Source of the DNA: Muribaculaceae bacterium
GTDB taxonomy: Bacteria > Bacteroidota > Bacteroidia > Bacteroidales > Muribaculaceae
Length of the DNA stretch: 64,000 nucleotides
Assembly: GCA_017557625.1 (NCBI GenBank)
Contig: JAFYYG010000065.1
Location: forward strand, 1-64,000
Reading direction: 5' to 3'
Shown one piece after another: positions 7,800-51,977 of this stretch (position 1 is the stretch's first letter; the number at the start of each line of letters is the position of its first letter). The translations under genes and the position numbers were made by a program. The notes under the pieces were generated by a model, which had not been told where the DNA came from, did not search any database, and was given only the letters and a program-made list of their open reading frames with translations.

Positions 7800-7817
7800 T
7801 GGTTGTCTTTTAGACTG

Positions 7818-7988: not shown

Positions 7989-8046
7989 GAGTATTATATA
8001 TTTTATAATAATGTACGGAGTATTATATATTTTATAATAATGTACG
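7989..8046. repeat. Perfect 29-bp tandem duplication
   Basis: Two identical 29-base units (7989-8017 and 8018-8046) each contain the near-palindrome TATTATATATTTTATAATA and end in ATGTACG. No coding frame runs through them. Confidence 0.95.
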
Positions 8047-9347: not shown

Positions 9348-9393
9348 TTCACAGTTAACAGTTATAACTGAGAAATCAAAAAGAGAATAGTTT

Positions 9394-10887
9394 ATGGCAA
9401 ACTTAAAGTCTTTAGCCAAAGACACGATGATATATGGCATGACGGGAATGTTGGGACGTTTTCTCAACTATCTGTTAGTGCCACTTTACACTGCCAGAAT
9501 CAGTGCGGCGTCGGGTGATTATGGCATTATTATCGATATCTATGCTTATGTCGCGTTGATAATTATCATACTGACCTTTGGCATGGAGACCACATTCTTC
9601 AGGTTTGCCAATAAGGAGAATGAGAATCCCAAGACGGTGATTTCCACGTCGTTGCTGGCAGTGACTGGCGTCTCGGCAATCTTTGTGCTGCTGGTATTCT
9701 TGCTGCTGCCCTGGCTGGCGCCGTGGATGCACTATGGCGACCACCCGAGCTACATTTGGGTGATGGCAGTGGTGGTGGCTCTCGATGCCGTGCAGTCGAT
9801 ACTCTATGCCTACCTGCGCTATCAACACAAGGCCATCAAGTTTGCCTCCTTGAAATTTGCCTTTATATTCCTCAACATCTTCCTTAACCTCATCTACTTC
9901 TGGCTGTTGCCGAGCATCTATGAGTCGCATCCGGGGTGGGTGAGTGCTATCTACGACCCCAGCATTGGCGTGGGCTACGCGTTCTACCTCAACCTGGTGT
10001 GCACTGGCCTGGTGACGCTGCTCTTCTGGAGAGAGTTCACAAGCATTGAATACAAGATGGACTGGAAGTTGCTGAAAAAGATGCTTGAATATACGTGGCC
10101 TCTGTTGGTCCTTGGCATTGTGGGCGTCTTGAACCAGACTATTGACAAGATTCTTTATACTAAAATTGACGAAAGCGCCAATGGCCGCATTCAGCTGGGA
10201 ATCTATGGCGCAGCGTGCAAGATAGCGATGATTATGGCGATTATCACCAACGCTTTCCGCTGGGCATACGAGCCGTTTGTCTTCGGCAAGAGCCGCGACA
10301 AGGACAACCGCGAGGCCTACGCCGCCGCGATGAAATACTTCATCATCTTTACGCTGCTGGCATTCTTGATGGTGGTGGCGTGGATCGACCTGCTCAAGTA
10401 TATAATCGGTCCCGACTACTGGGAGGGTCTGAAGGTGGTGCCCATAGTTATGGCTGCCGAGATTATGATGGGAGTGTATTTCAACCTCTCGTTCTGGTAT
10501 AAGCTCACCGACAAGACCATTTGGGGCGCAATATTCTCGTTCATAGGCTGCGCCGTGATGGTGATAATCAACTATAAGTTTGTTCCGATTGTGGGCTACA
10601 TGGCGTGCGCCTGGGGCGGCTTCACGGGCTATGGCGTTATGATGGTGCTTTGCTACATCGTGGGCAAGAAATATTATCCCATTGATTACCCCCTCAAGGA
10701 CATTGGATTCTACACTGGTTTGGCGGCATTGCTCTATGTGGCGAGCGTGCTGGTTGATTGGCACAGCAGTTTCGATAATGTGATTTATCGCACACTGCTG
10801 CTGTTGGTGTTTGTATCAGTACTGATGGAGCGGGAGAAAATCTCTGATAAGATAATGAAAATCAAGAGCCGCCATCAGCAAAACTGA
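9394..10887 (+). CDS. Polysaccharide/oligosaccharide flippase (Wzx-like, MOP superfamily)
   Basis: The 497-residue protein has about 14 hydrophobic segments spread over its length and the MOP-type start DTMIYGMTGMLGRFLNYLLVPLYT (split over 10-33). Family members flip lipid-linked oligosaccharides across the inner membrane for capsule, O-antigen or exopolysaccharide. It is a single gene downstream of ruvB without other glycan genes next to it, as often seen for a widespread Bacteroidetes flippase. The cargo is unknown. A bidirectional terminator follows. Confidence 0.88.
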   Translation: MANLKSLAKDTMIYGMTGMLGRFLNYLLVPLYTARISAASGDYGIIIDIYAYVALIIIILTFGMETTFFRFANKENENPKTVISTSLLAVTGVSAIFVLLVFLLLPWLAPWMHYGDHPSYIWVMAVVVALDAVQSILYAYLRYQHKAIKFASLKFAFIFLNIFLNLIYFWLLPSIYESHPGWVSAIYDPSIGVGYAFYLNLVCTGLVTLLFWREFTSIEYKMDWKLLKKMLEYTWPLLVLGIVGVLNQTIDKILYTKIDESANGRIQLGIYGAACKIAMIMAIITNAFRWAYEPFVFGKSRDKDNREAYAAAMKYFIIFTLLAFLMVVAWIDLLKYIIGPDYWEGLKVVPIVMAAEIMMGVYFNLSFWYKLTDKTIWGAIFSFIGCAVMVIINYKFVPIVGYMACAWGGFTGYGVMMVLCYIVGKKYYPIDYPLKDIGFYTGLAALLYVASVLVDWHSSFDNVIYRTLLLLVFVSVLMEREKISDKIMKIKSRHQQN

Positions 10888-13900: not shown

Positions 13901-14327
13901 CCACGTTCTCGGCCTTTGGGGCTGCTATCGCTTTGTCCATTTTGTCGGCAGGAATCTTGTCGAGCATCGCGATTTGCTGCGCGTACTCGTCGAGCCAGGC
14001 CTTCATGTTGGCTGGAATTTTATTCTCGTCGAAGTAACCCTCGTCGCTGAAGCCCAAGACAGGGTTGATGCGGTCATCGCCAGCTACGATTACGAATCCC
14101 TGGTTGTCGCCAATATTGAACACGTAGTAGGCGGCGTCGCTTGTAGCGGCGGCCTCGATACTTCTGTTGCCTCTGGCTGCAAACTTAAGGTTGCTTGTTT
14201 TCTGCTTGTTTAGTAGGAAGCGTGCAGCTTCTTGTTGTGCTTGCTCTTGGGTAATTGGAGCTGCTTGCGCAAGCAATCCAAGACTCATGCAGAGCAAAAG
14301 CAGGACAAATAGTCTGTTTCTTGCCAT
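10983..14327 (-). CDS. Secreted C10 family (streptopain-like) cysteine protease with dockerin-like tail
   Basis: The 1114-residue protein has a signal peptide (1-22, ending near QAA). A propeptide/inhibitor-like region (about 25-125) contains VFNIGDNQGFVIVAGDDR. The papain-fold catalytic domain (about 150-395) has the nucleophile Cys187 in TGCVATSMSQ and His334 in GGGHSFICDGY, followed by NWGWSG. The middle (about 400-1050) is beta-rich with several Ig- or jelly-roll-like repeats. The end (about 1060-1114) has two EF-hand-like dockerin repeats, GDVNGDGEVTSVDV and GDQNGDGSITTNDI. C10 proteases include SpeB, interpain and Bfp proteases. Export through the Sec pathway is clear; the final location is not. 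The two CotH proteins at 52-55 kb end in similar repeats. Confidence 0.92.
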   Translation of the reverse strand: MARNRLFVLLLLCMSLGLLAQAAPITQEQAQQEAARFLLNKQKTSNLKFAARGNRSIEAAATSDAAYYVFNIGDNQGFVIVAGDDRINPVLGFSDEGYFDENKIPANMKAWLDEYAQQIAMLDKIPADKMDKAIAAPKAENVVDTRNSIAPMLTTKWDQATPYWNECPQFMNSDNEEDGYELAYTGCVATSMSQLMKYYNYPTQTAQAIPSYTFVYSDGNYNYSTVQMEELPVTTFDWAHMKDTYTGAEDEIYTSAVAHLMYYVGCAVKSQYGISSTGAYTDDIPNGFALFGYSSSLAYRNDYTQDVWDEMVYQELAAGRPMIYNGTAGSGGGHSFICDGYEYGNYFHINWGWSGMGNGYFQLAIMNPYASGIGGSSSAEGYNMKQNIVYNVIPDGTTPGGGGGDEEDPVLTCTAVSGPSGWDRDGLSYPFKIYKSKIVKVSYSDHANSGKKFKTALALYDPNTDSFTICENSEGNGYFTVTTSALGETRQFGSGILSNASNVIKFGAGLTGTYHLVGAYQVQGSSEWKLMKESDRHYLEVVMTNYSATASAHPVINLQTTNWEFTGGEKVGVKEQINVTVKNNSVDRFYGDLYLDFGGQQIDEYSQYTTVVTGEVMPGEEAVITFNVTPTSSGTKTVKLMRLDAYGSLVTIGTGSVTIAQSSEAQELNLSVVIQAENATTQPSASNIYGEIYDSHARFSATITNHSNGDYSKYVLAPLFIIHKNPDGTVAGGSMVTYKQSALSLAAGESKTLYFDFDNLAYGSTYAMNIYARNYLPDNEEGSHVENIVQPGQSVYYDILPGVITWTAEGVRTGYMPVEGFQVAEDVAAVSLEGLTLNSVLPNNNPNTLYFLDEGASAPASLNGCNIVIGTTASSVALTDGYPYFTPQSFTAQTISYERTFDKARQDGIAENWSTIVLPFTPATCSASGSDMWIERFAQEADGVVVFNEVENIEANVPYIIAIDKAANLTGTPITWTATNILLKAEPIAYTSGETYLMAGTFIEQSLENIYNVDATGAVAQWGNGTVAPFRAYFKELAALDSHDSILLPGEAQQQQSIPGDVNGDGEVTSVDVTVLYNFLLDNDDSDMVNGDQNGDGSITTNDITIVYNILLGL

Positions 14328-14738
14328 AAAAATGGTGGTTTAAAATGTTAATGAATAAATGTTTATAAAAAAGTTTGGTTTGTGGTTCTTTAAAAATCGA
14401 GCAAATATAAGCTAAATATTTTAATTGCGAAAATTTATTCAGTATTATTATGCAAAAATCGCACAAAGCGAAGTAAAAGCGAGGTGAAAGTATAGAATTT
14501 GTGTCTATTATAATTTGGTTGAATACAAATGTGAATTTGTTTACAATGACAAATATTGGGGTGTTGGTGCTAAAATACTGATAATATGGTATTTAAAAAC
14601 TTATTCACAAGGTTGTTAATAACTTTTTAGTAAATAAATGAAAATTCTTTCGTTTGGATTTGTAAATTTCGGTTTTTATTTTGTAATTTTACACCCTGAA
14701 AGCGAAAACGTCGAAATTGCTACAAAAAAACGAGTAAA
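14328..14738. other. AT-rich divergent intergenic region before the dcw cluster
   Basis: The gap is 411 bases between the C10 protease gene and rsmH. No mraZ gene is present here, although mraZ precedes rsmH in many bacteria. Promoters for both flanking genes must lie here. CGTTTGG near 14650 and TTGTAATTTTA near 14680 could form a weak rsmH promoter. I see no RNA gene. Confidence 0.5.
14402..14409 (-). promoter_or_regulatory. Putative -7 box of the C10 protease promoter
   Basis: On the minus strand the sequence reads TATATTTG, a full match to TAnnTTTG, about 75 bases upstream of the start codon. No convincing -33 element is visible. Confidence 0.35.
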
Positions 14739-15656
14739 ATGACCACACCCGAGTATCATATTCCCGCTCTCCTTGAGGAGAGTATTAATGGGTTGAATAT
14801 CAATCCTGAAGGCATCTATGTTGATGTTACTTTCGGGGGTGGTGGCCATAGCCGTGCAATCATGGAGAAGTTGGGTGATAAAGGTCGTCTTTTCTCGTTT
14901 GACCAGGATATGGATGCATGGGCTAATAGGCTGGACGACAACCGATTTACTTTTGTACACAGCAACTTCTCTTTTTTGAGGAATTTTCTGCGTTATCATG
15001 GCATTGAGACCGTTGATGGCATTATAGCAGACTTGGGCGTGTCGTTTCACCACTTCGATACCAGTGAGCGCGGTTTCTCGTTCAGGCAGGACAGCCGCCT
15101 CGACATGCGCATGAATCGCGCCAGCAAAATCGATGCCGCAACGATAGTCAACACCTATGATGAGGAACAACTTGCCACAGTGCTTTACCTCTATGGCGAG
15201 CTCAAACAATCTCGACGCGTGGCCAGCGCGATAGTTAAAGCTCGCAATAGTGGCGAGATAACGACAACTTCTCGCTTGGTCGAGGTGGTGTCGCCTTTCA
15301 TCCGCAAGAGTCAGGAGAAGAAAGAACTGGCACAGGTTTTCCAGGCTCTGCGCATAGAGGTCAACCACGAGATTGACGTGCTCAAGAAGCTGCTCAACCA
15401 ATCGCTGCAAGTGCTCAAGCCCAGTGGCCGCCTCGTGATAATTACCTACCACTCGCTTGAGGACCGCTTGGTGAAGAACTTCATGCGCAGTGGCAACGTG
15501 GAGGGGAAAGTAGAAAAAGACTTCTATGGCAAGGTCAACACGCCGTGGAGACTCATCAACAACAAGGTCATCACCGCTAGCGATGTCGAGGTGGAGCGCA
15601 ATCCCCGCTCGCGCAGCGCTAAACTGAGAATAGCAGAGAAGGTTCACAGTTTATAG
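14739..15656 (+). CDS. rsmH: 16S rRNA (cytosine(1402)-N4)-methyltransferase RsmH
   Basis: The 305-residue SAM-dependent enzyme (MraW) methylates C1402 of 16S rRNA. Family features are HIPALLEESINGL at the N-terminus, the SAM-binding YVDVTFGGGGHSRAI, DGIIADLGVSFHHFD, GFSFRQDSRLDMRM, and TYHSLEDRLVKNF near the C-terminus. Length is normal. It is the first gene of the division and cell-wall cluster, with the ftsL-like gene 57 bases downstream. Confidence 0.97.
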   Translation: MTTPEYHIPALLEESINGLNINPEGIYVDVTFGGGGHSRAIMEKLGDKGRLFSFDQDMDAWANRLDDNRFTFVHSNFSFLRNFLRYHGIETVDGIIADLGVSFHHFDTSERGFSFRQDSRLDMRMNRASKIDAATIVNTYDEEQLATVLYLYGELKQSRRVASAIVKARNSGEITTTSRLVEVVSPFIRKSQEKKELAQVFQALRIEVNHEIDVLKKLLNQSLQVLKPSGRLVIITYHSLEDRLVKNFMRSGNVEGKVEKDFYGKVNTPWRLINNKVITASDVEVERNPRSRSAKLRIAEKVHSL

Positions 15657-29000: not shown

Positions 29001-30425
29001 ATGCAAAACATTGTTAAAGACGACGTAGCAGGCAATAGCAAGGCTAACGAGAACAAGACACCAGCGATGCCCGAGCAGAAAGACATCTTTGGAGAGATTG
29101 ACCAAGACCCCGGGTTTGGCAATCCCGAAGCACCCGAAGGCAGCAACGAGCCTTGCCTGATAAAGGTGATAGGAATTGGTGGTGGTGGCAACAATGCCAT
29201 CAACCACATGTATAAACAGAACATAAACGGCGTGTCGTTTGTGGTGATGAACACCGACCGGCAGGCCTTGAACAACTCGCCAGTGCCTAACCGTGTGCTG
29301 ATAGGCCCCAACACCACCTTTGGTTTAGGAGCAGGCAACAAGCCCGAGCTGGCAAAGCTGGCCGCCGAGGAGAGCCATGACGATATCGCAGCACTCTTCA
29401 ACGACGAGACCAAGATGGTGTTTATCACCGCTGGTATGGGTGGCGGCACTGGTACCGGCGCTGCTCCCGTGGTGGCACGTATCGCCCACGAGATGGGTGT
29501 GCTCACCATTGGTATCGTCACCATCCCCTTCCTCTTCGAGGGCAAGAAGAAGATCATCAAGGCGCTCAGCGGTGCCGACGAGATGCAGAAGTATGTTGAT
29601 GCCCTGCTCATCATCAACAATGAGCGGTTGAGCGAGATTTACCCCGACCTGAACTTCATGAACGCCTTTGGCAAGGCCGATGATACCCTGTCGGTCGCTG
29701 CCCGCAGCATCAGCGACTTGATTAACGTTGACGGATACATCAATCTTGACTTCAACGACGTGAACACCACCCTGCGTGAAGGTGGAGTGGCAATCATCAG
29801 TTCGGGATATGGTGAGGGCGAGCAGCGCGTGACCAAGGCCATTCAGGACGCTCTCAATTCGCCGTTGCTCAAGAACCGCGACATCTATGGCTCTCAGAAG
29901 ATATTGATGAATATCTACTATTCCCGCAATGCTAAGGATGAGTTCAAGATGAGCGAGATTGACGAGATGAAGAACTTCATGGCTCAGTTCTCTCTCGACC
30001 ACGACATGATTTGGGGTGTGGCCTACGACGAGACCTTAGGGGAGAAAATCAAGATTACTATGCTCGCATCGGGGTTCAATGTGTCGCTCGACACCGAGAC
30101 AGCAATGGTCGAGGGCGAGAAGAAGGGCGAATCGAAGATTGTTGCCGATACTAGCCGCATAGAGCGGGAATATGGTGAGAAGTTTAACGAGCTTGACATT
30201 GACCGTGCCAAGGCGCAGTATATAGTGCTGCGTCCTGAGGATATCGACAACGACGAGATAGTTGACCTGCTTGAGAAGAACCCTGCATTCAAGCGTGACC
30301 AGCAGGTTAAGAACGCAGTCAACGAGTTGCAGAGTGCATCCGCCAAGCCCAAGCCCGCCAAACCTGTTTCGCCCATAAGTAAAAAGATAGGCAGCACTAC
30401 TGGCACAATAACCTTTGATGTTTAA
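29001..30425 (+). CDS. ftsZ: Cell division protein FtsZ
   Basis: The 474-residue tubulin-family GTPase forms the Z ring. The tubulin signature GGGTGTG is at about 147-153 in FITAGMGGGTGTGAAP, preceded by VIGIGGGGNNAINHM. An N-terminal extension of about 50 polar residues precedes the GTPase fold, longer than in E. coli. The tail ends in PVSPISKKIGSTTGTITFDV, a linker plus a possible FtsA-binding tip. It is the last dcw gene; serS follows after 31 bases. Confidence 0.97.
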   Translation: MQNIVKDDVAGNSKANENKTPAMPEQKDIFGEIDQDPGFGNPEAPEGSNEPCLIKVIGIGGGGNNAINHMYKQNINGVSFVVMNTDRQALNNSPVPNRVLIGPNTTFGLGAGNKPELAKLAAEESHDDIAALFNDETKMVFITAGMGGGTGTGAAPVVARIAHEMGVLTIGIVTIPFLFEGKKKIIKALSGADEMQKYVDALLIINNERLSEIYPDLNFMNAFGKADDTLSVAARSISDLINVDGYINLDFNDVNTTLREGGVAIISSGYGEGEQRVTKAIQDALNSPLLKNRDIYGSQKILMNIYYSRNAKDEFKMSEIDEMKNFMAQFSLDHDMIWGVAYDETLGEKIKITMLASGFNVSLDTETAMVEGEKKGESKIVADTSRIEREYGEKFNELDIDRAKAQYIVLRPEDIDNDEIVDLLEKNPAFKRDQQVKNAVNELQSASAKPKPAKPVSPISKKIGSTTGTITFDV

Positions 30426-41964: not shown

Positions 41965-42008
41965 ACAAACTGCTGGAGTTTGATGATTTTCTGACTCCAG
42001 CAGTTTGT
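41965..42008 (-). terminator. Terminator-like hairpin at the end of the cytoskeletal-type operon
   Basis: ACAAACTGCTGGAGT and ACTCCAGCAGTTTGT form a perfect 15-bp stem with a 14-base loop, about 45 bases after the stop codon at 42055. A T run is lacking, so termination is inferred from position and stem strength. Confidence 0.5.
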
Positions 42009-42054: not shown

Positions 42055-42666
42055 TCAGATATATTTTATCACTAAAATGATAGTGGCGATGATGATGACA
42101 AACATTAGGCATCCTGACAAAGATATTGAGCATGAGCGTGTTTTGAATTGCCGTTCTGGGTTTGGATTGCCGTTTTCGTCATATTCGGCAGTTTTAGGGT
42201 CATATTTTTCTCTTATCGGCATTTTGCTGGGGAGACCCTGATAGTGGTCGATGAGGATTTTGCGAGGGTGCATACCGTCGTAGGGGGAGACCACACCGTT
42301 GTTCTCAAGTTGCTGCATTATTTGCTCGGCGCGTTCGGGGGGAATGTCAAAGTAGCGTTGCAGCATGGGCAGCGTGATGGCGTTGCAAGTGCGAATGTAG
42401 GCCACGGCAGCGTTATACAGCGGGTCAAGGCCTTCTGTCTGGTGGCTGTGTGTCTCATAATATAGGTCGCCTTTGAATTGTGGCGGTTCAGGGTCGGGGT
42501 GCCTTAGTTCATCGGCAGTGGTTTTTTCGTTAGGTATATAAGCAATGCCGTCCACAATTTTTAGCATCGACATGCATTGCGGGCAGGTGATGATATTGTT
42601 GAGCTTGGCGAGTTCCACTTCGCTCTGTATGGTGATGTATCCACATTTAGGACATTCTATTCTCAT
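42055..42666 (-). CDS. Zinc-ribbon / FtsK-gamma-like winged-helix / C-terminal TM protein
   Basis: The 203-residue protein has three parts. A zinc ribbon has Cys5, Cys8, Cys28 and Cys31. A winged helix at about 80-141 starts DPLYNAAVAYI and continues LPMLQRYFDIPPERAEQIMQQLENNGVVSP (split), ending GMHPRKILI; this order and pattern match the gamma domain of FtsK/SpoIIIE, which reads KOPS sequences. A tail-anchor TM helix lies at about 184-202. There is no ATPase motor. The cytoplasmic face should carry both the ribbon and the winged helix. It is the last gene of the seven-gene operon. The family assignment of the winged helix is by eye and should be tested. Confidence 0.75.
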   Translation of the reverse strand: MRIECPKCGYITIQSEVELAKLNNIITCPQCMSMLKIVDGIAYIPNEKTTADELRHPDPEPPQFKGDLYYETHSHQTEGLDPLYNAAVAYIRTCNAITLPMLQRYFDIPPERAEQIMQQLENNGVVSPYDGMHPRKILIDHYQGLPSKMPIREKYDPKTAEYDENGNPNPERQFKTRSCSISLSGCLMFVIIIATIILVIKYI

Positions 42667-42737
42667 AATTAAGGATTTGACAGTTCATAGTTAAGAGTTC
42701 ATAACTCATGGTGTTTTTGCCGCTATTTATACAATCA

Positions 42738-43478
42738 TCATTCTGAGACCATTCCAATGATAACATATATGATGAAGAATAGTGCCACTGCTACTACTGT
42801 AACAGTGATGCATCCTCCGAGGCTTAAGATGTCGAATTTCGAGAGCCAGGAGCTGTTTTTGTTGCTGGATGCAGTGCGGCGTCGGGCACCATTTCTTACT
42901 GAGTTGATGGGGGTGCGTTGTTGTTTCACTGATGCTGCCTGATAGTTAGGTTCTTGTGGTGGTTTGTAGGTGGATTGTTTATTGGCGGGAATGCGTCGAA
43001 CTGGTTGTGTTGTGGCTCTCAACTTTGCTGCCTCCTGTTGTGCCGCCGTCATGGGTTGCTTGAAGCTTGGCGGCGATACTCTCACATATTTTCCGCATTT
43101 AGGGCAGAAGTTCACGCCTTCTTTTAGGAATGTGCCACACTGCTTGCAAAAGCGCATCACGTCGTCGATGTGCGAATTGGCTTGCTCGATAGTTGAGTTG
43201 GCTGTGTTAGTGTACTCAGTTTGATGCGTTTCACCTGTGTGGCTGGCCGATGATATTGCCGACTGTTTGCTATATTTTGGTGGTTCTTGCAGGTCGGGGG
43301 TTATAGTGATGTCATCGTAGTCGCTGGAGGGCATAGCTGGAGCATTGCCGTTGAAGAGGTCCACGTCAACGTCAATCTCGGCGAGGCACTGAGGGCACAC
43401 GAGATGTCCGCTTTGGTTCTCAAGTTCCTCGAGCGACACGTCAATGTGTTTGCCGCATTTGGTACAGAAAATATGCAT
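42738..43478 (-). CDS. Double zinc-ribbon protein with C-terminal TM anchor
   Basis: The 246-residue protein has a first zinc ribbon with Cys5, Cys8, Cys28 and Cys31, at exactly the same positions as in the protein encoded downstream. A second ribbon has Cys111, Cys114, Cys125 and Cys128 (CKQCGTFLKEGVNFCPKCG). A basic, proline- and glutamine-rich linker (about 135-215) and a TM helix at about 222-243 follow. It is probably a cytoplasmic, tail-anchored protein. The function is unknown. It probably works with the other operon products. Confidence 0.72.
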   Translation of the reverse strand: MHIFCTKCGKHIDVSLEELENQSGHLVCPQCLAEIDVDVDLFNGNAPAMPSSDYDDITITPDLQEPPKYSKQSAISSASHTGETHQTEYTNTANSTIEQANSHIDDVMRFCKQCGTFLKEGVNFCPKCGKYVRVSPPSFKQPMTAAQQEAAKLRATTQPVRRIPANKQSTYKPPQEPNYQAASVKQQRTPINSVRNGARRRTASSNKNSSWLSKFDILSLGGCITVTVVAVALFFIIYVIIGMVSE

Positions 43479-43514
43479 TTATTGGTTGATGGTTGAGAGG
43501 GGAAAGTTAAGAAA

Positions 43515-43582
43515 AGTAGAGTAGTGGAGTAGTTAAAGATGGTTTAGTAAAGAGTGCTTTACTATTATTTCACTACTCTACT
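43515..43582. repeat. Inverted repeat between two operon genes
   Basis: AGTAGAGTAGTG (43515-43526) and CACTACTCTACT (43571-43582) can form a 12-bp stem with a 44-base loop inside the gap. It may be an RNA-stability or attenuation structure. The arms are also simple GTAGA-type repeats, so chance expansion is possible. Confidence 0.5.
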
Positions 43583-43604
43583 ACTCTACTATTTAACTGA
43601 AAAA

Positions 43605-44873
43605 TTAAGCGTAATGTATGATGGCTTTAACAACAATGTGCCACTTGCCGTTTTGGAGTTGTGCGCGTCCGGCACGGTCGGTGACGATTTTTGTTTTGCC
43701 AGCAATGGACTGGATGTTGTTGCCAGAGCAAGCCCTTGTTAGTGTGTCGCCAGGCATAAGAAGCGCGAGTTTTTGTGCCTCGCTCTTGCCTATTACGGTG
43801 AATGAGCCGCTCTTGCCATCCATAGTGGTGAGTTCAAAGATAGAGTTCCCGGGTTCGTAGGAAGAAGATGAGCGCGAGAAGTCGTCATTCTCATCGGGCT
43901 TTGCCATGAAAAGTATGCGAGGTTCGCCAAGAACAGTTCTGGGTTCCTCTTTCTTGGGTTCTTCTTTCTTGGGTTCCTCTTTCTTCACTTCTTCTTTCTT
44001 GGGTTCTACTTTTTTCACCTCTTCTTTATTGGGCTCAACCTTCTTCTCGGCAGGTTTTATTGCGTTTTTGTCGGCAGGTTTAGCGTCGAAGTCAATCTTC
44101 TTGGCTTGCGCAAGATTGTCGTTGGTGTTTTTTTGCTCGATTTTGTTTTCGCGTCTTACAGCAACCCTGTGAGCCTCCTCTTGTCCTTTCAGAGTGGCGC
44201 GCATTTTATCGATTTGCTTCTGTAGGTTCTTGATGTCATCGTTGGCATCACGCATGATAATCTGGTTCTCCTTGCGTGCCTGCATAGCGAGGAAAGTGCC
44301 AAGTCCACCCAGCGCGAGTCCTAAAAGCGAGAGGAAATATAGGAATCCGTGTCCTCCATGTCCCTCTTTCTCGCCGTTGGCAGCAGCAGTCTTGGTGGTA
44401 TCGCTTGCTGCAACAACGTTGGTGCCAGAGCTGGTGGTGCTTGTAGTGCTTGCGGGAGTGGCAGCCGCTGCGGCAGTGCTTTGTACCTCGTTGCCTGTGT
44501 GGCTGGCGTTGTACTTTTGAACGTCATTCCTCGTCACGTTACAGATATAACTTATAGATTTTATATTTGCGGCGTTATCTTTGATAACAGATACAAGTTT
44601 GTCGATATCTCCAGTCTCATTCTCATGGGTTTTGAGTTTATCATATACTTTGATCCATTCGCCATTGGCTCCATATAAAACGCGTAAGTCTTCAAGCGTA
44701 TAATTCTCGTTGGGTGCTTTTTTTCCAATAGAAAGCTGATTAGCAATGTGCTGTGCGCCGATAGCAAGACCGTGATTCCACTGTCCTTTCGAGAGGTTTC
44801 CATCTTGAGCTTTAATGCTCATTGTGCCTATAGAGGTGAGAAGGCACACTAAAACTACTAAAATTTTCTTCAT
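43605..44873 (-). CDS. Signal-peptide / TM / coiled-coil protein with KEEP repeats
   Basis: The 422-residue protein has a signal peptide (1-22) and a periplasmic region (23-175) whose stretch VIKDNAANIKSISYICNVTRNDVQKYN (split) is weakly LysM-like. A TM helix follows at 177-197. The cytoplasmic part has a coiled coil (about 203-255), charged KKEEP/KKVEP repeats (about 274-312) and a C-terminal domain (about 315-422) of unknown type. The topology connects periplasm to cytoplasm, so it could couple the cytoplasmic tubulin-like and actin-like proteins to the cell wall. I do not recognise the family. Confidence 0.7.
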   Translation of the reverse strand: MKKILVVLVCLLTSIGTMSIKAQDGNLSKGQWNHGLAIGAQHIANQLSIGKKAPNENYTLEDLRVLYGANGEWIKVYDKLKTHENETGDIDKLVSVIKDNAANIKSISYICNVTRNDVQKYNASHTGNEVQSTAAAAATPASTTSTTSSGTNVVAASDTTKTAAANGEKEGHGGHGFLYFLSLLGLALGGLGTFLAMQARKENQIIMRDANDDIKNLQKQIDKMRATLKGQEEAHRVAVRRENKIEQKNTNDNLAQAKKIDFDAKPADKNAIKPAEKKVEPNKEEVKKVEPKKEEVKKEEPKKEEPKKEEPRTVLGEPRILFMAKPDENDDFSRSSSSYEPGNSIFELTTMDGKSGSFTVIGKSEAQKLALLMPGDTLTRACSGNNIQSIAGKTKIVTDRAGRAQLQNGKWHIVVKAIIHYA

Positions 44874-44910
44874 TTTTTTAATGATTTTAATGGTTATTAT
44901 TATGTTATTT

Positions 44911-47900
44911 TTATGTTGTTCTTGAGATCACCTCGTTGCAGAGGTTCTTGAGCAGATTGTGTCGAATGATGCCGATAACAGGGTAGAAGAATGGCACGTC
45001 CTCGATGGGCTCGTCGCCTTCATATCGTCCCTTGAGATAGTTGTTGATACCTGCTGTGAGGTAGTTGTCGATGTCGTCGCCAAGTACGCTACAGAATATC
45101 TTGAACACCTTGTTGTCAATGCCAAACTCATCTTTAGTGACGTTGTCGCACAGGTTGATGAAGAATTGGTTGTATTGCGCCACCTGCTCGATGAGTTTGT
45201 CGCGGGTTTCGATGTCATAGACCGACTTGATGGTGAGAGGTTGCTTGTCGATCATTGAGAAGCAGTATTTCATAGCGTTGACGTTGCGCGGCGTGAGTTG
45301 CTGCACATCGACATTGCCATCCATGCGCAGGGTTTCGAGCTTGATTCCTCCGCGGCAGGTGATCTGCTTGGGGCTCTTCTGCTCAATCTTGATGAGGAAT
45401 CGCTCAGTGTATTTCTTCTCAAACACACGTTCCAGGATGAGTTGCGTGAACTCGATGACCTGGTCTTTGCTTCCCAGTATGTTGAGTATTTTGGAGCCAG
45501 TGCCGCTGAAGTATATCTGCTTAGGCATCTCGTAGTTGCGCGCTTTCATTGACTGCGCTATGTAGTAGATGATTGCGGCATAGAAGTACATGAAGATGAG
45601 CTTGCGCTGCTGGTCGTTGCGCAGCAATATGTTGTAGCTGTAGATGTTGCGGTCCACCTCACGCAGAGTGCGCAGCTGTTCCACGTTCTCAATTGAGAAG
45701 AGGAAAGCGTTGACGTCTTGCGAGCGCTTGCGCTTGAGCACGTCTTGGAGGATGCTGTTGAGGTAGCCTATGTCGCTGTTTTTTGAGATGAGTCGCTTGA
45801 AGTACTCGCCATAGTGACGTATGAGCGGGTTGTTGTCGGCGTCGCGCTCAGTGAAGGCGTCGCCAAAGATGGCGTCACCGGCAAAGCGGAATGACGATAT
45901 CGCCACCGGAATGGTGTCGAGACGGTTGTTGGTAGGTTGGTAAATGACCGTGTCGGTGGTGCCTCCGCCAATGTCGATGGAGACGAAGCTACCTCCGCTC
46001 ACGTCATCGCCCTTGTAGAAATAAGCTGGTGCGATGCTCTCGGGATAGGCGTGGAGATTGCTGGTGTCGTTGCCAAAGTAGGTGCGGTACAGCTCATTCC
46101 AGGTGTCATCGAGCTTGCGTCGGTCGCTCCCCCCCATGCTCACTGGGAAGAAATATACGATACTTGTGCGGTTGAGGTCACCGTTCTCGAGCAGCACCTT
46201 AGCTTTTATGAGCAGCACCAGCTCACGCAAGAACTCGCGCGAGAGCGTGATGTCGCCCATCCATTTGAGGTTGGTGGTGATATCGTAGCCGTCGAAGTAC
46301 TGACGCTCGTAAAGGAACGGGATGTTGATGTCGCCAAAGAGCTTGTGCCCGCCAGTGCTGATGGCGTTGCGTGCCAAAGCACTTCGCAGAGGGAAACCAT
46401 ACACATTGTCAATGTCGCTTGGCAGGAACTCCACGCGCTGCAGCTGGTCGGCAAAGGTGAGCGTGCCACGCTTGAGCAGCGAGGCGATAAGCACCTGATT
46501 CTCACCGTGAGCAAACTCCAGCGTTTTGGCGTCTTCTCCACGTACTGACCACTCCACATGGCTGTTTGTGGTACCGAAATCGACTGCAAAAATCAGTTCT
46601 TTGCTGCTTGCCATGTAAGGTTTCCAAAGAGGAATGATAAATCCTGTGAATTGTCCCGATGGGGTAGTGATATCGGCTTTCACTATGTCGAATGCTTCTT
46701 CGAGGTCGTAGTAGGAAGTGGTGAAAGTGTTTTGTGAGCGCAGCTTGCAGTTGTACTTTAGGTTGTCGTTGTTCATTCCATCATTGAAGAACGACAGTTG
46801 CACGTCGCCGCCATTTATCATCGAGAACAGCTGCACGGTGTAGTCGTCCTTATAGTTGGTGCGCACAAATGGGAAAATGGCTGCCGACATCACCACATTG
46901 GTGATTATACGTCCTGTGCCACGCTTCTCGTCGAAGTGCCATGATGGGTCGTCGATGGGGTAATAGTTGCGAGTGAGTTCGATGAACCGTTTTTTTAGCG
47001 GTACCCTAAGGGTGACATTCACCGACCCGTCGCTCAGCTCTTCCATCTCAAGCATGTTGCGGCCATGAACCTGCTTTGTCACGTCGCTGGCGTTGAAATA
47101 TTTGAAGAACTCCTCGGTTAAGGGCATCAGGTATCCATTATGGCTTATCATCGCCTTATTGATGATATTGCCATTGAAATAGTGGTCATTGTCGATTGGC
47201 CCACTGAGGCGGATGAGGGTGTCTTGCAAGAAGTCGCCAGTGGTGACGAAGGGATACTCTATGCTGGTGTCGGGGAGCTTGCGCTTCGACACTGGCGTGC
47301 CGTTGGTAAAGACCATTGTGGAGCTGTCCCACTCCTTGTCGATATAGATATAGTGGTCAACGCTGCCGTTGAAGTTGTTGCGCAGCACCAGTGGCAGGGT
47401 GTCGCTAACCTCCCGCGTGGGTGCGATGACGAAGTCGCTGCTGGCGGCTGCGGTGCGTATGTCGCGTGCCCGCTTGTGGTAGAGCCTTGCCCCCAGCACG
47501 GTCACCTCGTTGTCGCCTACAAATGGGTCGAATTCCAGGTCGAGCCTCTCTACCAATCGTGGTGCCAGCTCATAGCTTAGAGCCTCAAGGTTTGGAATCA
47601 CTTGTGTGAGGCGGTTGTAAAGCAATGGTTTCTGCTCCATGATGATGTTCTTGTTTTTGAGCATGTAGTCATACACACCCTTCACGGCGGTGCGCAGTGT
47701 AGGGAAGGCATTGAAGAGCATGAACATGAAGTAGATGAAGTCATCGTCGCGTTGCCACAGGTCGCGGGTGTCGTTGTCGAAGAGAGAGATGCCTTGCTCC
47801 ACCTTGATTGCGCTTATTGGCTTCTCGCTCTCACGAGGCACGGCTATAGTCATCGATGACGGCGAAGTTGCCCCTATTACCTGACTGTTCCATAATAGTA

Positions 47901-48342
47901 TATACCAGTCGGTGAGCAGGTTGAAGTTATACTTGGTGTCGCTGGCGAGGAAGAGCTCGAGTGTCTCGCCGTAGAGACGGTGCTCGGGCTCGCTCTTGAG
48001 ACGTTCAATCTGCTCGTCTCGGTTCCAGCGTACGATGTGCATGTAGTCTTTGTGGTTCTCGAAGTCGAAGAAGAGTTGTGCCACGTCGAGGGCGTTCGAC
48101 ACCAGTCGCTTGTCCATCATCGACCCGCTCAGTCGCGCGTTGCTGGCGAGATGCTCAAAGGCATTCTTCACCAAGTCGAGCTGCGCGAATGGGCTAGGGA
48201 TAGCGGTACGCGGGTTCTCGCTCATGCCACCGTTAGGGTCCTTGATTTTTTTTATGTCATCGTCAACATAGGGAGTTACGGGAATCCAGTCCTGTGCACT
48301 GGTCTTCGTCGTCTTGTTGTTATATGATAGTACTTGACTCAT
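44911..48342 (-). CDS. Giant ASKHA (actin/Hsp70-fold) ATPase-like protein
   Basis: The 1143-residue protein has an unassigned N-terminal part (1-580) and an actin/Hsp70-type nucleotide-binding core. The core carries phosphate 1 FAVDFGTTNS (585-594), connect-1-like YPESIAPAY (766-774), phosphate 2 SIDIGGGTTD (788-797) and adenosine motif IYFSGTGSKI (943-952). The key aspartates Asp588 and Asp790 are present, so ATP binding is likely. No signal peptide or TM helix is seen, so it is cytoplasmic. SrfB-family proteins are large ASKHA proteins too and a relationship is possible but unproven. Its gene lies just after the tubulin-like gene in the same operon. Confidence 0.8.
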   Translation of the reverse strand: MSQVLSYNNKTTKTSAQDWIPVTPYVDDDIKKIKDPNGGMSENPRTAIPSPFAQLDLVKNAFEHLASNARLSGSMMDKRLVSNALDVAQLFFDFENHKDYMHIVRWNRDEQIERLKSEPEHRLYGETLELFLASDTKYNFNLLTDWYILLWNSQVIGATSPSSMTIAVPRESEKPISAIKVEQGISLFDNDTRDLWQRDDDFIYFMFMLFNAFPTLRTAVKGVYDYMLKNKNIIMEQKPLLYNRLTQVIPNLEALSYELAPRLVERLDLEFDPFVGDNEVTVLGARLYHKRARDIRTAAASSDFVIAPTREVSDTLPLVLRNNFNGSVDHYIYIDKEWDSSTMVFTNGTPVSKRKLPDTSIEYPFVTTGDFLQDTLIRLSGPIDNDHYFNGNIINKAMISHNGYLMPLTEEFFKYFNASDVTKQVHGRNMLEMEELSDGSVNVTLRVPLKKRFIELTRNYYPIDDPSWHFDEKRGTGRIITNVVMSAAIFPFVRTNYKDDYTVQLFSMINGGDVQLSFFNDGMNNDNLKYNCKLRSQNTFTTSYYDLEEAFDIVKADITTPSGQFTGFIIPLWKPYMASSKELIFAVDFGTTNSHVEWSVRGEDAKTLEFAHGENQVLIASLLKRGTLTFADQLQRVEFLPSDIDNVYGFPLRSALARNAISTGGHKLFGDINIPFLYERQYFDGYDITTNLKWMGDITLSREFLRELVLLIKAKVLLENGDLNRTSIVYFFPVSMGGSDRRKLDDTWNELYRTYFGNDTSNLHAYPESIAPAYFYKGDDVSGGSFVSIDIGGGTTDTVIYQPTNNRLDTIPVAISSFRFAGDAIFGDAFTERDADNNPLIRHYGEYFKRLISKNSDIGYLNSILQDVLKRKRSQDVNAFLFSIENVEQLRTLREVDRNIYSYNILLRNDQQRKLIFMYFYAAIIYYIAQSMKARNYEMPKQIYFSGTGSKILNILGSKDQVIEFTQLILERVFEKKYTERFLIKIEQKSPKQITCRGGIKLETLRMDGNVDVQQLTPRNVNAMKYCFSMIDKQPLTIKSVYDIETRDKLIEQVAQYNQFFINLCDNVTKDEFGIDNKVFKIFCSVLGDDIDNYLTAGINNYLKGRYEGDEPIEDVPFFYPVIGIIRHNLLKNLCNEVISRTT

Positions 48343-48371
48343 TATAGTTGTCAGTTGTGAGTTGTCAGTTA

Positions 48372-49901
48372 TCAGTTGAGGTTGTTATATCGGTCGGTGA
48401 TAATTTTCTCGGCGGCGGTGTAGAAGAGGTCCATAAGTTTTAGCTCTGGATTGCTGCCGTAGGTGTTGTTGTCGCGGCTGAGGCGGTTCATTTCGGCCTT
48501 GAAAGTGTCGTTGTCAACCTTCTTGCTGCCGAAGAAGCCTTTTTTGGTAAGCACATTGTGTATGGCTTTGTTCATGTCCATCTCCCCCTCGTTGAAGAGG
48601 GTGACATGGCGGCGATTGTGCAGCATCTCGGTAAGCCACTCGATGTAGCTGTCGAAGAACTGCTGGGTGAGCACGCGGTAGAACTGTGTGCCAGTGAACT
48701 CGCGGGTTATCTTTGGGACATCCTCGGTAAATCCCTGACCTATCATGCCATTCAAGCCTGTGCGCAGGAAGATGTATAAAAGATGCAGCTTCACAAGCGG
48801 CCGGTAGATGACAGAGCGCGTCTCTTGTCCGAAAGCCGAGAAATCGACGAAATCGGTATCTTGGTCAAGACCATATTCAAACGCCTTAGTGGGCAACGGT
48901 TCACCTGTTGCGAGGTCGGTGAGTTCGCTGTCGCTCATGCTTAAGAACTTGAATGGAGCCATCGCGCCGACCATCTCTATGAGGTGGGCGGGGTCGTGCT
49001 GGTCTCGCTTATCTCCTGGGTCATAGGCGTAAGGGGCGTTGTGCCCGTGGTCGCCAAGATAAAAAATTGCGTTGACAGCGTTTTTGCCGTCGCCAGTGAG
49101 GGTGTTGTTATAGTATTCGAGTGCACTCTGGGTTTTTACTACGAAATCGGCATTGTCGATGCGCTTGTCTTCCTTGTCGTCGCTCTCCATTAGTGAGAAA
49201 TAGGGCAGCACAGTGAGCCCACCAATGGGTGCTTTCTGCAGATATGCCTTGTTCTTGGCGTCGATGTTCTTGGCTTGTCTAATGTTTTTGACGATAATTG
49301 GGAAGCCCGCCGCACCTGTTCCACCAAAGATGCTGCTGATGAAGAAGATGCGGTCACCGTCGGCAAAGACGTTGGCAAAGGCTTTGAACTCGTTGCTGTC
49401 CTTGATGCCGTTGAGAGCCACGCTGCCAATGTTGGGCGATCCCACGAAACCTATGCTCATCTTGTTCTCAAGCTGATAGTCGGCAAAGAGCAGCGAGGTG
49501 AGCGCCTGGTTAGGTTCATTCATCGTGTTGTAGCTGATGAAATCGCGGAATTTGTAGTTCTCGACAGCAGCGAGGTTGAAGATAAACGAGTCGTCAAGCG
49601 GCACTTGGCTGCTTGATACCACCTCTTTGAGGCTTGATATCTTGGTGGCGAAGAAGCCGTTAGCGTTAGCGTTCTTGCCATAGAGTTTCTCGCGTATAGT
49701 GCTATAGGCGCTGAGCAACCGCTCGGTGCGCTTGAGGTCGGCATTCGACTTGTGTGGGTCGATAATGATGGGCACGATTTCCACGTCTTGCAGTGGACGT
49801 CCGTTGGCATCAACAGGTCTCACGCCAGCGGCGCACAGCATAATCATCGACTTGAGCACGCGTGAACCAGTACCTCCTATAGCAAAGATGAATAGTTTCA
49901 T
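48372..49901 (-). CDS. Tubulin/FtsZ-like protein
   Basis: The 509-residue protein has the N-terminal nucleotide-binding glycine loop FAIGGTGSRV (6-15), a T3-like IIIDPHKSN (45-53), and the tubulin signature region SSIFGGTGAAGFP (189-201), corresponding to GGTGSG in tubulin and FtsZ. It is clearly distinct from the FtsZ at 29001. A conventional T7 catalytic loop is not obvious, so GTP hydrolysis or polymerisation is uncertain. It matches the 'tubulin-like' bacterial families predicted to act in membrane remodelling. No TM helix is present. Its neighbours are the actin-like protein and a small membrane protein. Confidence 0.8.
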   Translation of the reverse strand: MKLFIFAIGGTGSRVLKSMIMLCAAGVRPVDANGRPLQDVEIVPIIIDPHKSNADLKRTERLLSAYSTIREKLYGKNANANGFFATKISSLKEVVSSSQVPLDDSFIFNLAAVENYKFRDFISYNTMNEPNQALTSLLFADYQLENKMSIGFVGSPNIGSVALNGIKDSNEFKAFANVFADGDRIFFISSIFGGTGAAGFPIIVKNIRQAKNIDAKNKAYLQKAPIGGLTVLPYFSLMESDDKEDKRIDNADFVVKTQSALEYYNNTLTGDGKNAVNAIFYLGDHGHNAPYAYDPGDKRDQHDPAHLIEMVGAMAPFKFLSMSDSELTDLATGEPLPTKAFEYGLDQDTDFVDFSAFGQETRSVIYRPLVKLHLLYIFLRTGLNGMIGQGFTEDVPKITREFTGTQFYRVLTQQFFDSYIEWLTEMLHNRRHVTLFNEGEMDMNKAIHNVLTKKGFFGSKKVDNDTFKAEMNRLSRDNNTYGSNPELKLMDLFYTAAEKIITDRYNNLN

Positions 49902-49973
49902 ATTATTTCGGGGATCGGGGATCGAAGATCGTAATCGGGGTTAGTGTATTTATGGATTGTAATTATTAATGCA

Positions 49974-50414
49974 TTATTGCGGTATTGGAGTGTGGCGGCA
50001 GTTGCTGCTCCACCATCGCATCGAGAAGGAGGCGATGACGAATGTGAGTGCAGTGAACAGTATGTTGTAAATTTCAAAAGTGAACTCGGCGGTGGAGTAG
50101 TCAAAACCTTCAAGCGATTGTGACACAGAAATGTAGCATATTATTGGGGTTATCACGCATGTCACGCCCAGCATCGCTAACCAGTGATACCATCGGTCAA
50201 ATTTTACCGAGTTGATAAGGTAGTAGTAGATTGCTGCGATGCCCCAAGCCGTACCTATTGTGATAGCAGCTACCGAGCCATAGGCGCCAGTGTTGTACAT
50301 TTGGTCACTAAAGCCGTTCACGGTGTAAAGGGCCTCATATAGCTCTACCCTGAAAATCCAGAACAGAACACTCGCCACAATTCCAATAATTAAATATACA
50401 ACTTTGTCTCTCAT
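49974..50414 (-). CDS. Four-TM membrane protein of the cytoskeletal-type operon
   Basis: The 146-residue protein has hydrophobic segments at about 4-22, 47-68, 75-97 and 112-132 and short loops. No family is recognised. It could be a membrane receptor for the tubulin-like protein encoded next. It is co-oriented with its neighbours, with gaps of 19 and 72 bases. Confidence 0.65.
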   Translation of the reverse strand: MRDKVVYLIIGIVASVLFWIFRVELYEALYTVNGFSDQMYNTGAYGSVAAITIGTAWGIAAIYYYLINSVKFDRWYHWLAMLGVTCVITPIICYISVSQSLEGFDYSTAEFTFEIYNILFTALTFVIASFSMRWWSSNCRHTPIPQ

Positions 50415-50433
50415 ATAGTTTGCAGTTTATAAT

Positions 50434-51897
50434 TTAGTCTTCAAGTTTGATTGTTATTTTCCCGTAGGTGGCGTTGCCTGGGGCGAAGGCGTCGTAGATG
50501 CCTTGCAGGAAGCGCTCAAGGCCGAAGGTTGTTGTTGCGAAGCCTGGGGCCGAGGGGTTGGTGTCGCTGGTTGTTGACGACTCACTGATCCATGCCGGGA
50601 ACTTGTTGTTGATAGTTATGGAGAGTTCGTCATGTTTCGTCTTAAACTTGCCCCTTGCGGTGATAATATGTGTCATCCCATTGAGATAAGAACGGTTGTT
50701 ATTGTTGATGTCGCCAGAGGTGATGGGTCTAACCGAGATTTGGAATCCCGTCTGTGACTGCACAGCATAGTTGGAGATGTTGGTCAAGAATGCGTCGTCC
50801 TTGCCTAATGGCTTAAAGTTAACAGCTATGGTGAAGCACAAGATACCAGTCTCTCGGTCGCCTTCGCACTTGGTGAGCATCTTCTGGTCGTCGCGTGAGA
50901 TGCGGAACCTCCCCACATTGTCTTTCCAATCGGGGATAATTTTGAAGTTGATGTTTCCTGGAACCTGGTTGAAGCGGTAGGTGTTCTTCACTCCGTCGGG
51001 ATGTAGGAACTTGGCATATTTCTCGTCGTTGGCCATGCGGTCGATTGTTGCCACGTCTCCCACGATGATCAGATAGAAAGGTCGCTGACCGTTGTAGGCC
51101 ACCGGCGCATTGTTGTAGGGATAGTACATGCCGTTATAGTCTCCCATAAGTTGGTTGACGATGATAGACTTGCCCTTATAAGTCTTGAATATTGCTGTTG
51201 CCACGCTGTTCTCTTCGTTGAGAATCTTCTCTACGCTCACGTCGGCGGTGTTCTTAGGCGAATAAATCATGTCGGTTACCAGCACGCTCACGTTGCCTGG
51301 TTTCTGGGCTTGGAAAATCTTCTCGAATATGAGTTTGAAGTCGGTGTAACTGGCATCGCCAGTGCCGCTTGTGCTCTCATAGATGTTGCGGTCTTGCAGG
51401 AAAGAATCTACGGTTCCGTTGTAGGGGTAGATATTGTCGTTCACGATGTTGATTTTCACATTTTCCCGAGTTGGGAAGAAATTGATGAGGTCATTGACTG
51501 CCTTCTTGAGCTGCCCGCCGCCGCTGGTGTGGTCGTAGTGTATCATCGAGCCGCTTCGCTCAAAGTATATGGTGAGCGATAGGTTCTTGAGGCTAAAGAC
51601 CGAGATGTCCCACGACATTGGCGGGCGCAGTTTACTGCCTATCTCGTTGATGTATTTTCCAAGTGCCTCAACGTTTATATCTCCATTCTTGTCGAGATAC
51701 TGGGCATATTTCTTTGGGTCGTTTTTTATGATGGAGCAAATAGAGTCGTAGGTGACCTGTGTGGTGTCGCCGTTGATTAATGCTTTCTTGATGGCCTTTT
51801 CTAAGCCACCGCCTCCGCACGAGGTCATAGCCATGCTAGCGGCAATCGCCACAATCATTACTGCAACTAGAGTGAGTATTCTGTTTATTTTCCTCAT
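50434..51897 (-). CDS. vWA-like lipoprotein
   Basis: The 487-residue protein has a signal peptide with lipobox MAMTSC (Cys27) and, from about 105, a von Willebrand A-like domain. The first MIDAS strand reads LTIYFERSGSM, with Glu113 in place of the usual Asp of DxSxS but Ser115 and Ser117 kept. SVLVTDMIYS (about 204-213) supplies the later Thr/Asp-containing strand. The remaining C-terminal region (about 330-487) is beta-rich and unassigned. ATG 51897 is chosen since the signal peptide starts there; an upstream in-frame ATG at 51936 adds 13 residues. First gene of the operon. Confidence 0.8.
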   Translation of the reverse strand: MRKINRILTLVAVMIVAIAASMAMTSCGGGGLEKAIKKALINGDTTQVTYDSICSIIKNDPKKYAQYLDKNGDINVEALGKYINEIGSKLRPPMSWDISVFSLKNLSLTIYFERSGSMIHYDHTSGGGQLKKAVNDLINFFPTRENVKINIVNDNIYPYNGTVDSFLQDRNIYESTSGTGDASYTDFKLIFEKIFQAQKPGNVSVLVTDMIYSPKNTADVSVEKILNEENSVATAIFKTYKGKSIIVNQLMGDYNGMYYPYNNAPVAYNGQRPFYLIIVGDVATIDRMANDEKYAKFLHPDGVKNTYRFNQVPGNINFKIIPDWKDNVGRFRISRDDQKMLTKCEGDRETGILCFTIAVNFKPLGKDDAFLTNISNYAVQSQTGFQISVRPITSGDINNNNRSYLNGMTHIITARGKFKTKHDELSITINNKFPAWISESSTTSDTNPSAPGFATTTFGLERFLQGIYDAFAPGNATYGKITIKLED

Positions 51898-51969
51898 TGT
51901 CAATATGTTTAAAAACAAAGTTTTTAATAAAGGCATCAGCCATTATTGGCCACTTCACCTTATAACTTG

Positions 51970-51977
51970 CAAAGTTA
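51970..51977 (-). promoter_or_regulatory. Putative -7 box of the cytoskeletal-type operon
   Basis: On the minus strand the sequence reads TAACTTTG, a perfect TAnnTTTG, about 73 bases before the vWA lipoprotein start. The same octamer is used by the tRNA-Asp promoter. No strong -33 TTTG is seen. Confidence 0.5.

Follow-up and report, generated by a model that had tools for sequence, protein, structure and literature searches.

A conserved tubulin-like and actin/Hsp70-type protein couple of Bacteroidales, a candidate for an envelope-spanning machine that is linked to a stator in relatives

A stretch of 64,000 nucleotides from a Muribaculaceae bacterium (assembly GCA_017557625.1, contig JAFYYG010000065.1, positions 1–64,000), called the window below, contains an operon that pairs a tubulin-like protein (TUB) with an ATPase of the actin/Hsp70 type (ASKHA). 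In our reading of the open reading frames (ORFs) of the window, the operon consists of seven genes on the minus strand, from position 51936 down to 42055, in the order VLP-TM-TUB-ASKHA-CC-ZR2-ZR1 (Table 1). This agrees with the first-pass annotation, made from the sequence alone, which had placed seven genes here in one direction. The intergenic gaps in the order of transcription are 19, 72, 29, 37, 126 and 71 bases. Judging from the relatives, position 51897 is a likelier start of VLP than 51936. An ordinary ftsZ gene is located in the same window (29001–30425). About 12 kb separate it from the operon and about 18 kb from TUB itself. Thus, the operon is separate from the FtsZ/FtsA division genes, as had been proposed.

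Table 1. Genes and flanking signals of the operon in the window (TM, transmembrane).
Feature	Description	Length (aa)	Coordinates	Strand
VLP	Lipoprotein with vWA-like motifs (ExSxSM ... T ... D)	500	50434..51936	minus
TM	Small multi-TM protein	146	49974..50414	minus
TUB	Tubulin/FtsZ-like protein	509	48372..49901	minus
ASKHA	ASKHA (actin/Hsp70-type) ATPase	1143	44911..48342	minus
CC	Signal/TM coiled-coil protein with KKEEPKKEE repeats	422	43605..44873	minus
ZR2	Double zinc-ribbon protein with C-terminal TM anchor	246	42738..43478	minus
ZR1	Zinc-ribbon and FtsK-gamma winged-helix protein with C-terminal TM anchor	203	42055..42666	minus
TAACTTTG	-7-type promoter box (weak evidence)		51970..51977	minus
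Hairpin	Long hairpin 3' of ZR1, without a T tract		41965..42008	minus

The TUB protein carries the motifs GGTG (residues 9–12) and FGGTGA (residues 192–197). Both are invariant in 28 aligned rows of close relatives, the window protein included, and the N-terminal GGTG, Asp48 and FGGTGA are invariant across 25 diverged rows. The window protein itself stays below the Pfam cut-offs (PF00091 Tubulin, E 0.0074; PF13809 Tubulin_2, E 0.026, 14.2 bits against 27). PF00091 is passed by the TUB of locus L077 (37.8 bits against a cut-off of 33, residues 4–237), and PF13809 is passed by L081 (33.6 bits) and L083 (30.8 bits; cut-off 27). When ten relatives were scanned singly, seven matched Pfam at E ≤ 0.001 and three exceeded a cut-off, and the TUB proteins of L078, L080 and L084 gave no Pfam match at E 0.001. 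Each of the two models was matched at E ≤ 0.01 by 16 of the 25 family members. The best match of the diverged TUB profile in the PDB was 3zid, a Tubulin/FtsZ GTPase (E 0.013). A PDB search with the single window TUB returned two weak FtsZ rows only (E 1 and 1.5), and searches with other single window proteins or with alignments of close relatives gave nothing useful; the diverged alignments alone helped. We assign TUB to the FtsZ/tubulin superfamily at the level of sequence, and this membership comes through the relatives that pass the Pfam cut-offs, not from the window protein alone. The earlier description of a tubulin-type protein is borne out in this form.

One position of the TUB family differs in the clade of the window. 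This is the xD(F) position that follows the (H)xxEL segment. Of 36 TUB rows, 27 have Asp there; the exceptions are K/R/H in six rows of the window clade, His in L083 and L125, and Asn in L086. In the close relatives this Asp is replaced by K/R/H in 28 of 28 rows. The conserved Asp is possibly the catalytic residue of the T7 loop.

In the ASKHA protein, about 580 residues of unknown fold are followed by the ATPase core, with motifs at 588, 790 and 945–951. These are DFGTTN, DIGGGTTD and FSGTGSK, which we take to be the phosphate-1, phosphate-2 and adenosine motifs; they are conserved in 25 rows, and D588, G590, D790, G792, G793, D797 and G947 are invariant in 22 rows. Compared with the PDB, the family profile matched an actin family protein (E 7.9e-6), MreB (1.4e-5) and mitochondrial Hsp70 (0.001), in each case over short local stretches around the phosphate motifs. 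The order of the motifs and the profile similarity to solved structures argue for membership in the ASKHA family, and the annotated intact phosphate motifs are indeed there. The window protein fails the cut-off of the Pfam FtsA model (PF14450, E 0.14, 12.9 against 31.8 bits). The idea that the protein is of the SrfB type was dropped: Pfam and NCBIfam gave no such match in the window ASKHA, nor did Pfam in three relatives.

Across 393 genomes of the order, the ASKHA search matched 204 in all. The match was strong (E<1e-150) in 23 genomes, some of these matches being cut or in pieces, and weak (E ~1e-9 to 1e-3) in the other 181. Among the weak matches listed, the similarity covers the phosphate-2 region and the ORFs are mostly 420–490 aa long. 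In G001, G003 and G004, the three genomes in which the position was checked, the weak match lies directly upstream of ftsZ on the same contig and strand, which is the place of ftsA. For this reason, the nearest ordinary relative of ASKHA is probably FtsA. These data also bear on another explanation of the operon, a chaperone-like device for assembly or transport, in which ASKHA would act on substrates in the manner of Hsp70 and TUB would be a GTP switch that does not polymerise. Such a device would account for the Hsp70 chains among the PDB matches, for the long part ahead of the ATPase core and for a protease-like ORF that was noticed by eye near some relatives' loci (L073). However, actin and MreB rank first among the PDB matches, the three positioned genomic matches stand beside ftsZ as FtsA does, and the Pfam HSP70 model is unmatched in the four ASKHA proteins scanned. 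We regard the chaperone explanation as unlikely.

The locus was then compared in two sets of relatives. The close set comprises 44 loci from one contig scan, several on contigs that are cut short; they come mostly from rumen and gut Bacteroidales (Muribaculaceae, Prevotellaceae, Porphyromonadaceae, or classified just as Bacteroidales), and L047 is distant. By tblastn, VLP was found in 40/44 of them, TM in 41/44, ASKHA in 39/44, CC in 34/44, ZR2 in 26/44 and ZR1 in 27/44, the ZR1 and ZR2 matches landing on one ORF in L035 and L038. ASKHA is missing from L019, L021, L031, L034 and L039. The contig of L019 ends inside TUB, and L031 and L034 have no ASKHA in the ~1 kb left to the contig end. L021 carries a solitary TUB gene (5574–7109; 74% identity to the window TUB) among unrelated neighbours; neither ASKHA nor any further gene of the operon occurs within 15 kb. 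In L039 (11527–20306), TUB is followed for 10 kb by other genes, which by their look encode RHS-repeat-like proteins. In L028, TUB and ASKHA are separated by an insert (11915–14943) that by its look includes an AAA-type ATPase.

The distant set comprises 33 loci: 20 of the 24 non-own places in the order sample (G226, G255, the second place of G010 and the second fragment of the G077 gene were left out) and all 13 non-own places in the phylum sample. Within 11 kb of TUB, ASKHA was found in 27/33, VLP in 20/33 and TM in 21/33 of these loci, with profiles that include many of the order-locus proteins they find; the phylum loci are independent of them. The TM match is located upstream of TUB in the 21 loci, with an extra predicted ORF between them in L122 and as a weak match within a 514-aa ORF in L083. 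The order VLP-TM-TUB-ASKHA is kept in 18/33. Thus, the conserved unit across Bacteroidota is the four-gene core of VLP, TM, TUB and ASKHA, and the last three genes vary.

Within the genus, TUB and ASKHA are present in 60/61 genomes each and VLP in 59/61. None of the three is found in G801 (74% complete), and VLP is also missing from G785. Restricting the count to genomes with a completeness of 90% or more and a contamination of 5% or less gives 31/31 for each of the three proteins. Outside the genus, TUB was matched in 44/198 genomes of the family and 21/393 of the order, and a wider TUB profile matched 14/395 genomes of the phylum. The TUB–ASKHA system therefore belongs to the core of the genus and has a patchy distribution beyond it. 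All 21 TUB genomes of the order sample are among the 23 with a strong ASKHA match; the other two, G016 and G318, have ASKHA without TUB. The co-occurrence is significant (Fisher p 7e-33 over the 393 genomes, a statistic that ignores kinship). In G326, G036 and G035, the two matches are on different contigs. The co-occurrence in related genomes, which the annotation had named as a check on itself, is thus found. Beside the core, G815 (C14:69899-80115) and G835 (C5:70709-77103) contain a second, diverged VLP-TUB-ASKHA set, and G815 has two ASKHA matches.

The first gene of the core encodes a lipoprotein. In 23 rows of VLP, the lipobox Cys and one Asp are invariant, and the Glu and the second Ser of the ExSxSM motif are near-invariant. 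The classic DxSxS form occurs only in L047 and L130, and the window protein has ExSxSM. Pfam gave no match in the window VLP and a match to VWA_2 in one of the 23 family members (E 0.052); a search of the PDB with the VLP profile gave no relevant match. Of the proposed vWA-like lipoprotein, the lipobox and the motif stand, but Pfam and PDB profiles do not recover a vWA domain, so that the vWA identity is one of motif level only. The description of VLP as surface-directed had to be given up. Surface-exposed lipoproteins of Bacteroides carry the export signal CS(D/E)2, according to the part of the source used here (PMC6222051). In VLP, the lipid-bearing Cys is followed by GGGGLEK, without a CS(D/E)2 or K-(D/E)2 signal. 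Because the signal is absent, VLP should face the periplasm. The second gene, TM, had been described as encoding four transmembrane segments; two of them exceed a hydropathy of 1.6, but the other two were judged by eye only. Its only Pfam match is YibE_F (E 0.014).

The variable end of the operon encodes CC, ZR2 and ZR1. Hydrophobic segments of CC lie at residues 4–22 and 177–195, and its C-terminal domain appears, from an alignment judged by eye, to be kept at the same place of the operon in relatives. PADLOC matched CC to the defence protein PD-T4-6 (E 2e-4), which we judged spurious in view of the lysine/glutamate repeats. ZR2 passes the Pfam DZR model (E 2.3e-9, 37.7 against 27.3 bits) and has a transmembrane segment at 223–241; ZR1 passes FtsK_gamma (E 3.1e-14, 52.9 against 30.6 bits) and has one at 181–199. 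Two tail-anchored proteins of this kind had been predicted, and both have the hydrophobic C-terminal segment. As core parts of the system they do not hold, since they are found in little more than half of the close loci, as counted above.

FtsK_gamma in ZR1, the region of which aligns in orthologues of close relatives (15 rows), gives some ground for an apparatus of DNA segregation or chromosome anchoring. A tubulin-like filament would then work with a membrane-bound FtsK-gamma winged helix in the way of TubZRC, a plasmid segregation system in which a tubulin-like protein acts with a winged-helix protein. However, in the close loci the core often occurs without ZR1, and this role seems to us very unlikely.

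The flanking signals were annotated as a promoter box and a strong hairpin. The box TAACTTTG is present at 51977 and is presumably of the -7 type; it is weak evidence of a promoter because the window contains 46 copies of TAnnTTTG when both strands are counted. The hairpin is strong (-36.6 kcal/mol, z -5.37 for a stretch of 121 nt), but it has no T tract. Within the operon, 94 bases of the CC–ZR2 gap (43505–43598) show 74% identity to their own reverse complement, a possible further hairpin.

In many relatives, the core is joined by genes of another kind. A ZorA-like gene was found after or near TUB in 13 of the 33 distant loci, and a ZorB-like gene in 12 (L081 included; the count leaves out L128, where an OmpA protein is weakly matched). 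The two profiles were built from seven and six of the same loci, and the independent finds are L121–L125, plus L130 for ZorA. PADLOC assigned ZorB1 (E 1e-16) and ZorA2 (E 1.7e-11) in L080, ZorA2 (E 9e-8) and ZorB1 (E 4e-8) in L084, and ZorB1 (E 2.7e-12) in L073. Neither L073 nor L084 has a Pfam MotA match. The ZorA-like protein of L130 comes close to the MotA_ExbB cut-off (22.3 against 22.9 bits), and the OmpA model is passed by a different protein of that operon (E 1.2e-16). All ten rows of the ZorB-like family have an invariant Asp in a MotB-type segment and the OmpA-type LSYxRA. In Zorya, ZorA and ZorB form a 5:2 complex, as stated in the part of the source used here (PMC11890865).

In the window genome there is no ZorB-like match genome-wide (ZorA-like genes were not sought genome-wide), and a stator encoded elsewhere in that genome was rejected as a candidate within the same scope. 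PADLOC gave no Zor match in the seven proteins of the window, and one of 31 genomes of the genus has a weak ZorB-like match (E 2.4e-4). In a tree of 36 TUB rows, the presence of the stator takes four changes, three of which are forced by the starred branches, with seven rows uncounted. Middling support (88/74 and 94/94) places L119 and L120 nearest to the TUB clade of the window. Neither of their operons shows a stator, although the contig of L119 ends inside ASKHA. Outside the TUB family, L131 encodes a 1615-aa protein (548–5395) with a TUB-profile match (E 4.7e-10), followed by ORFs (7271–8827 and 9752–10381) that look MotA-like and MotB-like by eye; this suggests that the linkage of tubulin and stator reaches beyond the TUB family.

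The Zor-type proteins raise the question of defence. The operon could be a membrane-associated conflict system against invaders, comparable to Zorya or to the systems described by Kaur et al. (2020); tubulin and ASKHA would then assemble once an invader is sensed. In the part of their paper that we used, Kaur et al. report tubulin with vWA, and HSP70, in conflict systems with DO-GTPases (PMC7159879). The match of the relatives' stator proteins to ZorA/ZorB and the patchy occurrence outside the genus would fit such a function. Against it, the system is near-universal in the genus, which is unusual for a defence island. Moreover, Pfam and NCBIfam scans of the seven proteins gave no nuclease, helicase or P-loop GTPase family above cut-off (none of the models being specific to GAP1), and the only PADLOC match in them is that of the repeat-rich CC, judged spurious. 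A conflict system is, in our estimate, quite unlikely.

NTPases of the tubulin and actin types play a central part in how cells are organised, and in bacteria the best-known couple of both is FtsZ–FtsA. With middling confidence, we read the operon as encoding a division-independent, envelope-spanning cytoskeletal machine that is built on a diverged FtsZ–FtsA-like couple, is linked to a stator in relatives and apparently does without one here. At the cytoplasmic face of the inner membrane, TUB would act as a GTPase that polymerises or switches with GTP. Its polymer would be bound and remodelled by ASKHA, a giant ATPase with a core that, of ordinary proteins, is apparently closest to FtsA, MreB and actin, and the small TM protein together with the tail-anchored zinc-ribbon proteins would fix the polymer to the membrane. 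CC would link the cytoplasm to the periplasm, where VLP would be the end of the machine, probably at the outer membrane. In many relatives, a stator of the ZorA/ZorB (MotA/MotB) type with a peptidoglycan-binding OmpA-type domain is encoded directly after the core, and therefore one form that is common, and perhaps ancestral, is probably a machine that spans the envelope and is powered by ions. The genus of the window apparently runs the core without a stator of the ZorA/ZorB family. What the sequences show is the order of the genes, their conservation and co-occurrence, the assignment of TUB, ASKHA and the relatives' stator proteins at sequence level, and that almost every genome of the genus has TUB, ASKHA and VLP. 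Polymerisation, localisation, transmission of force and a biological role in envelope growth, shape or remodelling are inferred. A membrane-associated cytoskeletal or remodelling machine apart from division had already been proposed in the first-pass annotation. The conserved pairing and the separateness support it, but the stator of the relatives had been missed, and the function remains conditional.

A more specific version of this reading is tentative, and we consider it possible rather than probable. In it, Bacteroidota would possess a second, division-independent FtsZ–FtsA-like couple whose polymer is joined mechanically through an ion-driven stator of the ZorA/ZorB type, peptidoglycan and the lipoprotein to the outer membrane, as an ion-powered cytoskeletal engine across the envelope. 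In the genus of the window the stator would have been lost, and TUB may have become a hydrolysis-deficient stable scaffold held by the zinc-ribbon anchors.

Several observations weigh against the envelope-machine reading. The Pfam Tubulin model finds only ftsZ in the window genome and misses TUB, and an hhalign comparison of the TUB family with 11 local FtsZ proteins was not significant (probability 0.2% and 1.1%). If xDF is the T7 loop, the window TUB may bind GTP without hydrolysing it, because the Asp is replaced by K/R/H in its clade. In PADLOC, the ZorA-like protein of L073 has a better match to LeoBC (6e-8) than to ZorA (0.028), and MotB_plug/OmpA of Pfam remain below cut-off in L073 and L080. 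When the ZorB profile was run on 12 genomes, mostly TUB carriers (G080 has no TUB match), three matched (G182, G280 and G747) and nine did not, including the core carriers G193, G639 (one contig), G759 and G408; thus, the stator is not obligatory for the core. Finally, eight loci (L087–L092, L128 and L129) have a third type of TUB, with GGTGMR, which stands beside ASKHA in 5/8 and has no VLP seen near it. Two other features of the third-type loci were noted. L129 combines an FtsZl1-type tubulin (2256–3463) and a 1301-aa ASKHA (3580–10572) with at least two TerD genes, a link to stress modules of the Ter type, and L128 has an OmpA gene near TUB.

If the envelope-machine reading is true, the operon would represent a second conserved couple, core to a genus of the gut and rumen and accompanied in relatives by genes of an ion-driven stator, that would link the cytoskeleton, the ion gradient and the outer membrane in one machine. 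Among the papers listed in the literature search, judged by title and opening of the abstract, none describes a tubulin-like protein with ASKHA, VLP and ZorA/B; this is weak evidence, as preprints and many subscription journals were outside its reach.

Among known systems, the FtsZ–FtsA divisome shares with the operon a tubulin-type protein and an ASKHA ATPase whose core is apparently nearest to FtsA, MreB and actin. Unlike the divisome, the operon lies apart from ftsZ in the window, its ASKHA has 1143 residues with a large N-terminal part, and no divisome family was matched in it except FtsK_gamma in ZR1. The relatives resemble the Zorya ZorA/ZorB and MotA/MotB stators in encoding a ZorA-like protein and a ZorB-like protein with the MotB-type Asp and an OmpA-type domain. 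In contrast to those stators, the genes are joined here to tubulin-like, ASKHA and vWA-like genes, and the window genome has no ZorB-like match. The DO-GTPase conflict systems have tubulin, HSP70-type and vWA parts, membrane segments and zinc ribbons within the class, and their tubulin-bearing forms are reported from firmicutes and actinobacteria, in the part of the source used (PMC7159879). In contrast to them, no P-loop GTPase family was matched in the seven proteins (Pfam/NCBIfam). Unlike TubZRC, the operon is core to its genus, membrane-anchored and equipped with a large ASKHA partner.

The closest parallel is the FtsZl1-vWA kind of system, for which Makarova and Koonin (2010) proposed a function in membrane remodelling together with GTPase and OmpA proteins; this and the following statements on it come from part of that paper (PMC2875224). 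A relation of the operon to this proposal, mentioned in the first-pass annotation, is supported. Both have a diverged protein of the tubulin superfamily, a vWA-type partner, membrane and OmpA-type proteins, and an ordinary FtsZ alongside, and the two operon relatives L081 and L083 pass Tubulin_2, a group that a 2023 paper on FtsZ/tubulin evolution set aside, in the part of it used here (PMC9871819). The systems differ in that P-loop GTPases, kinases and OmpA proteins are reported for FtsZl1, and the part of the paper used mentions neither an ASKHA partner nor a stator of the MotA/ZorA type. A P-loop GTPase or kinase, frequent but not universal in FtsZl1 systems, was not found by the Pfam and NCBIfam scans of the seven proteins. 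TUB has 509 residues, whereas most FtsZl1 proteins contain a long coiled coil and the type case has 1051. In our reading, the operon extends the predicted FtsZl1-vWA kind, the link to a stator in relatives is new here, and the uncharacterised FtsZl1-type proteins of 2010 gain a testable set of partners.

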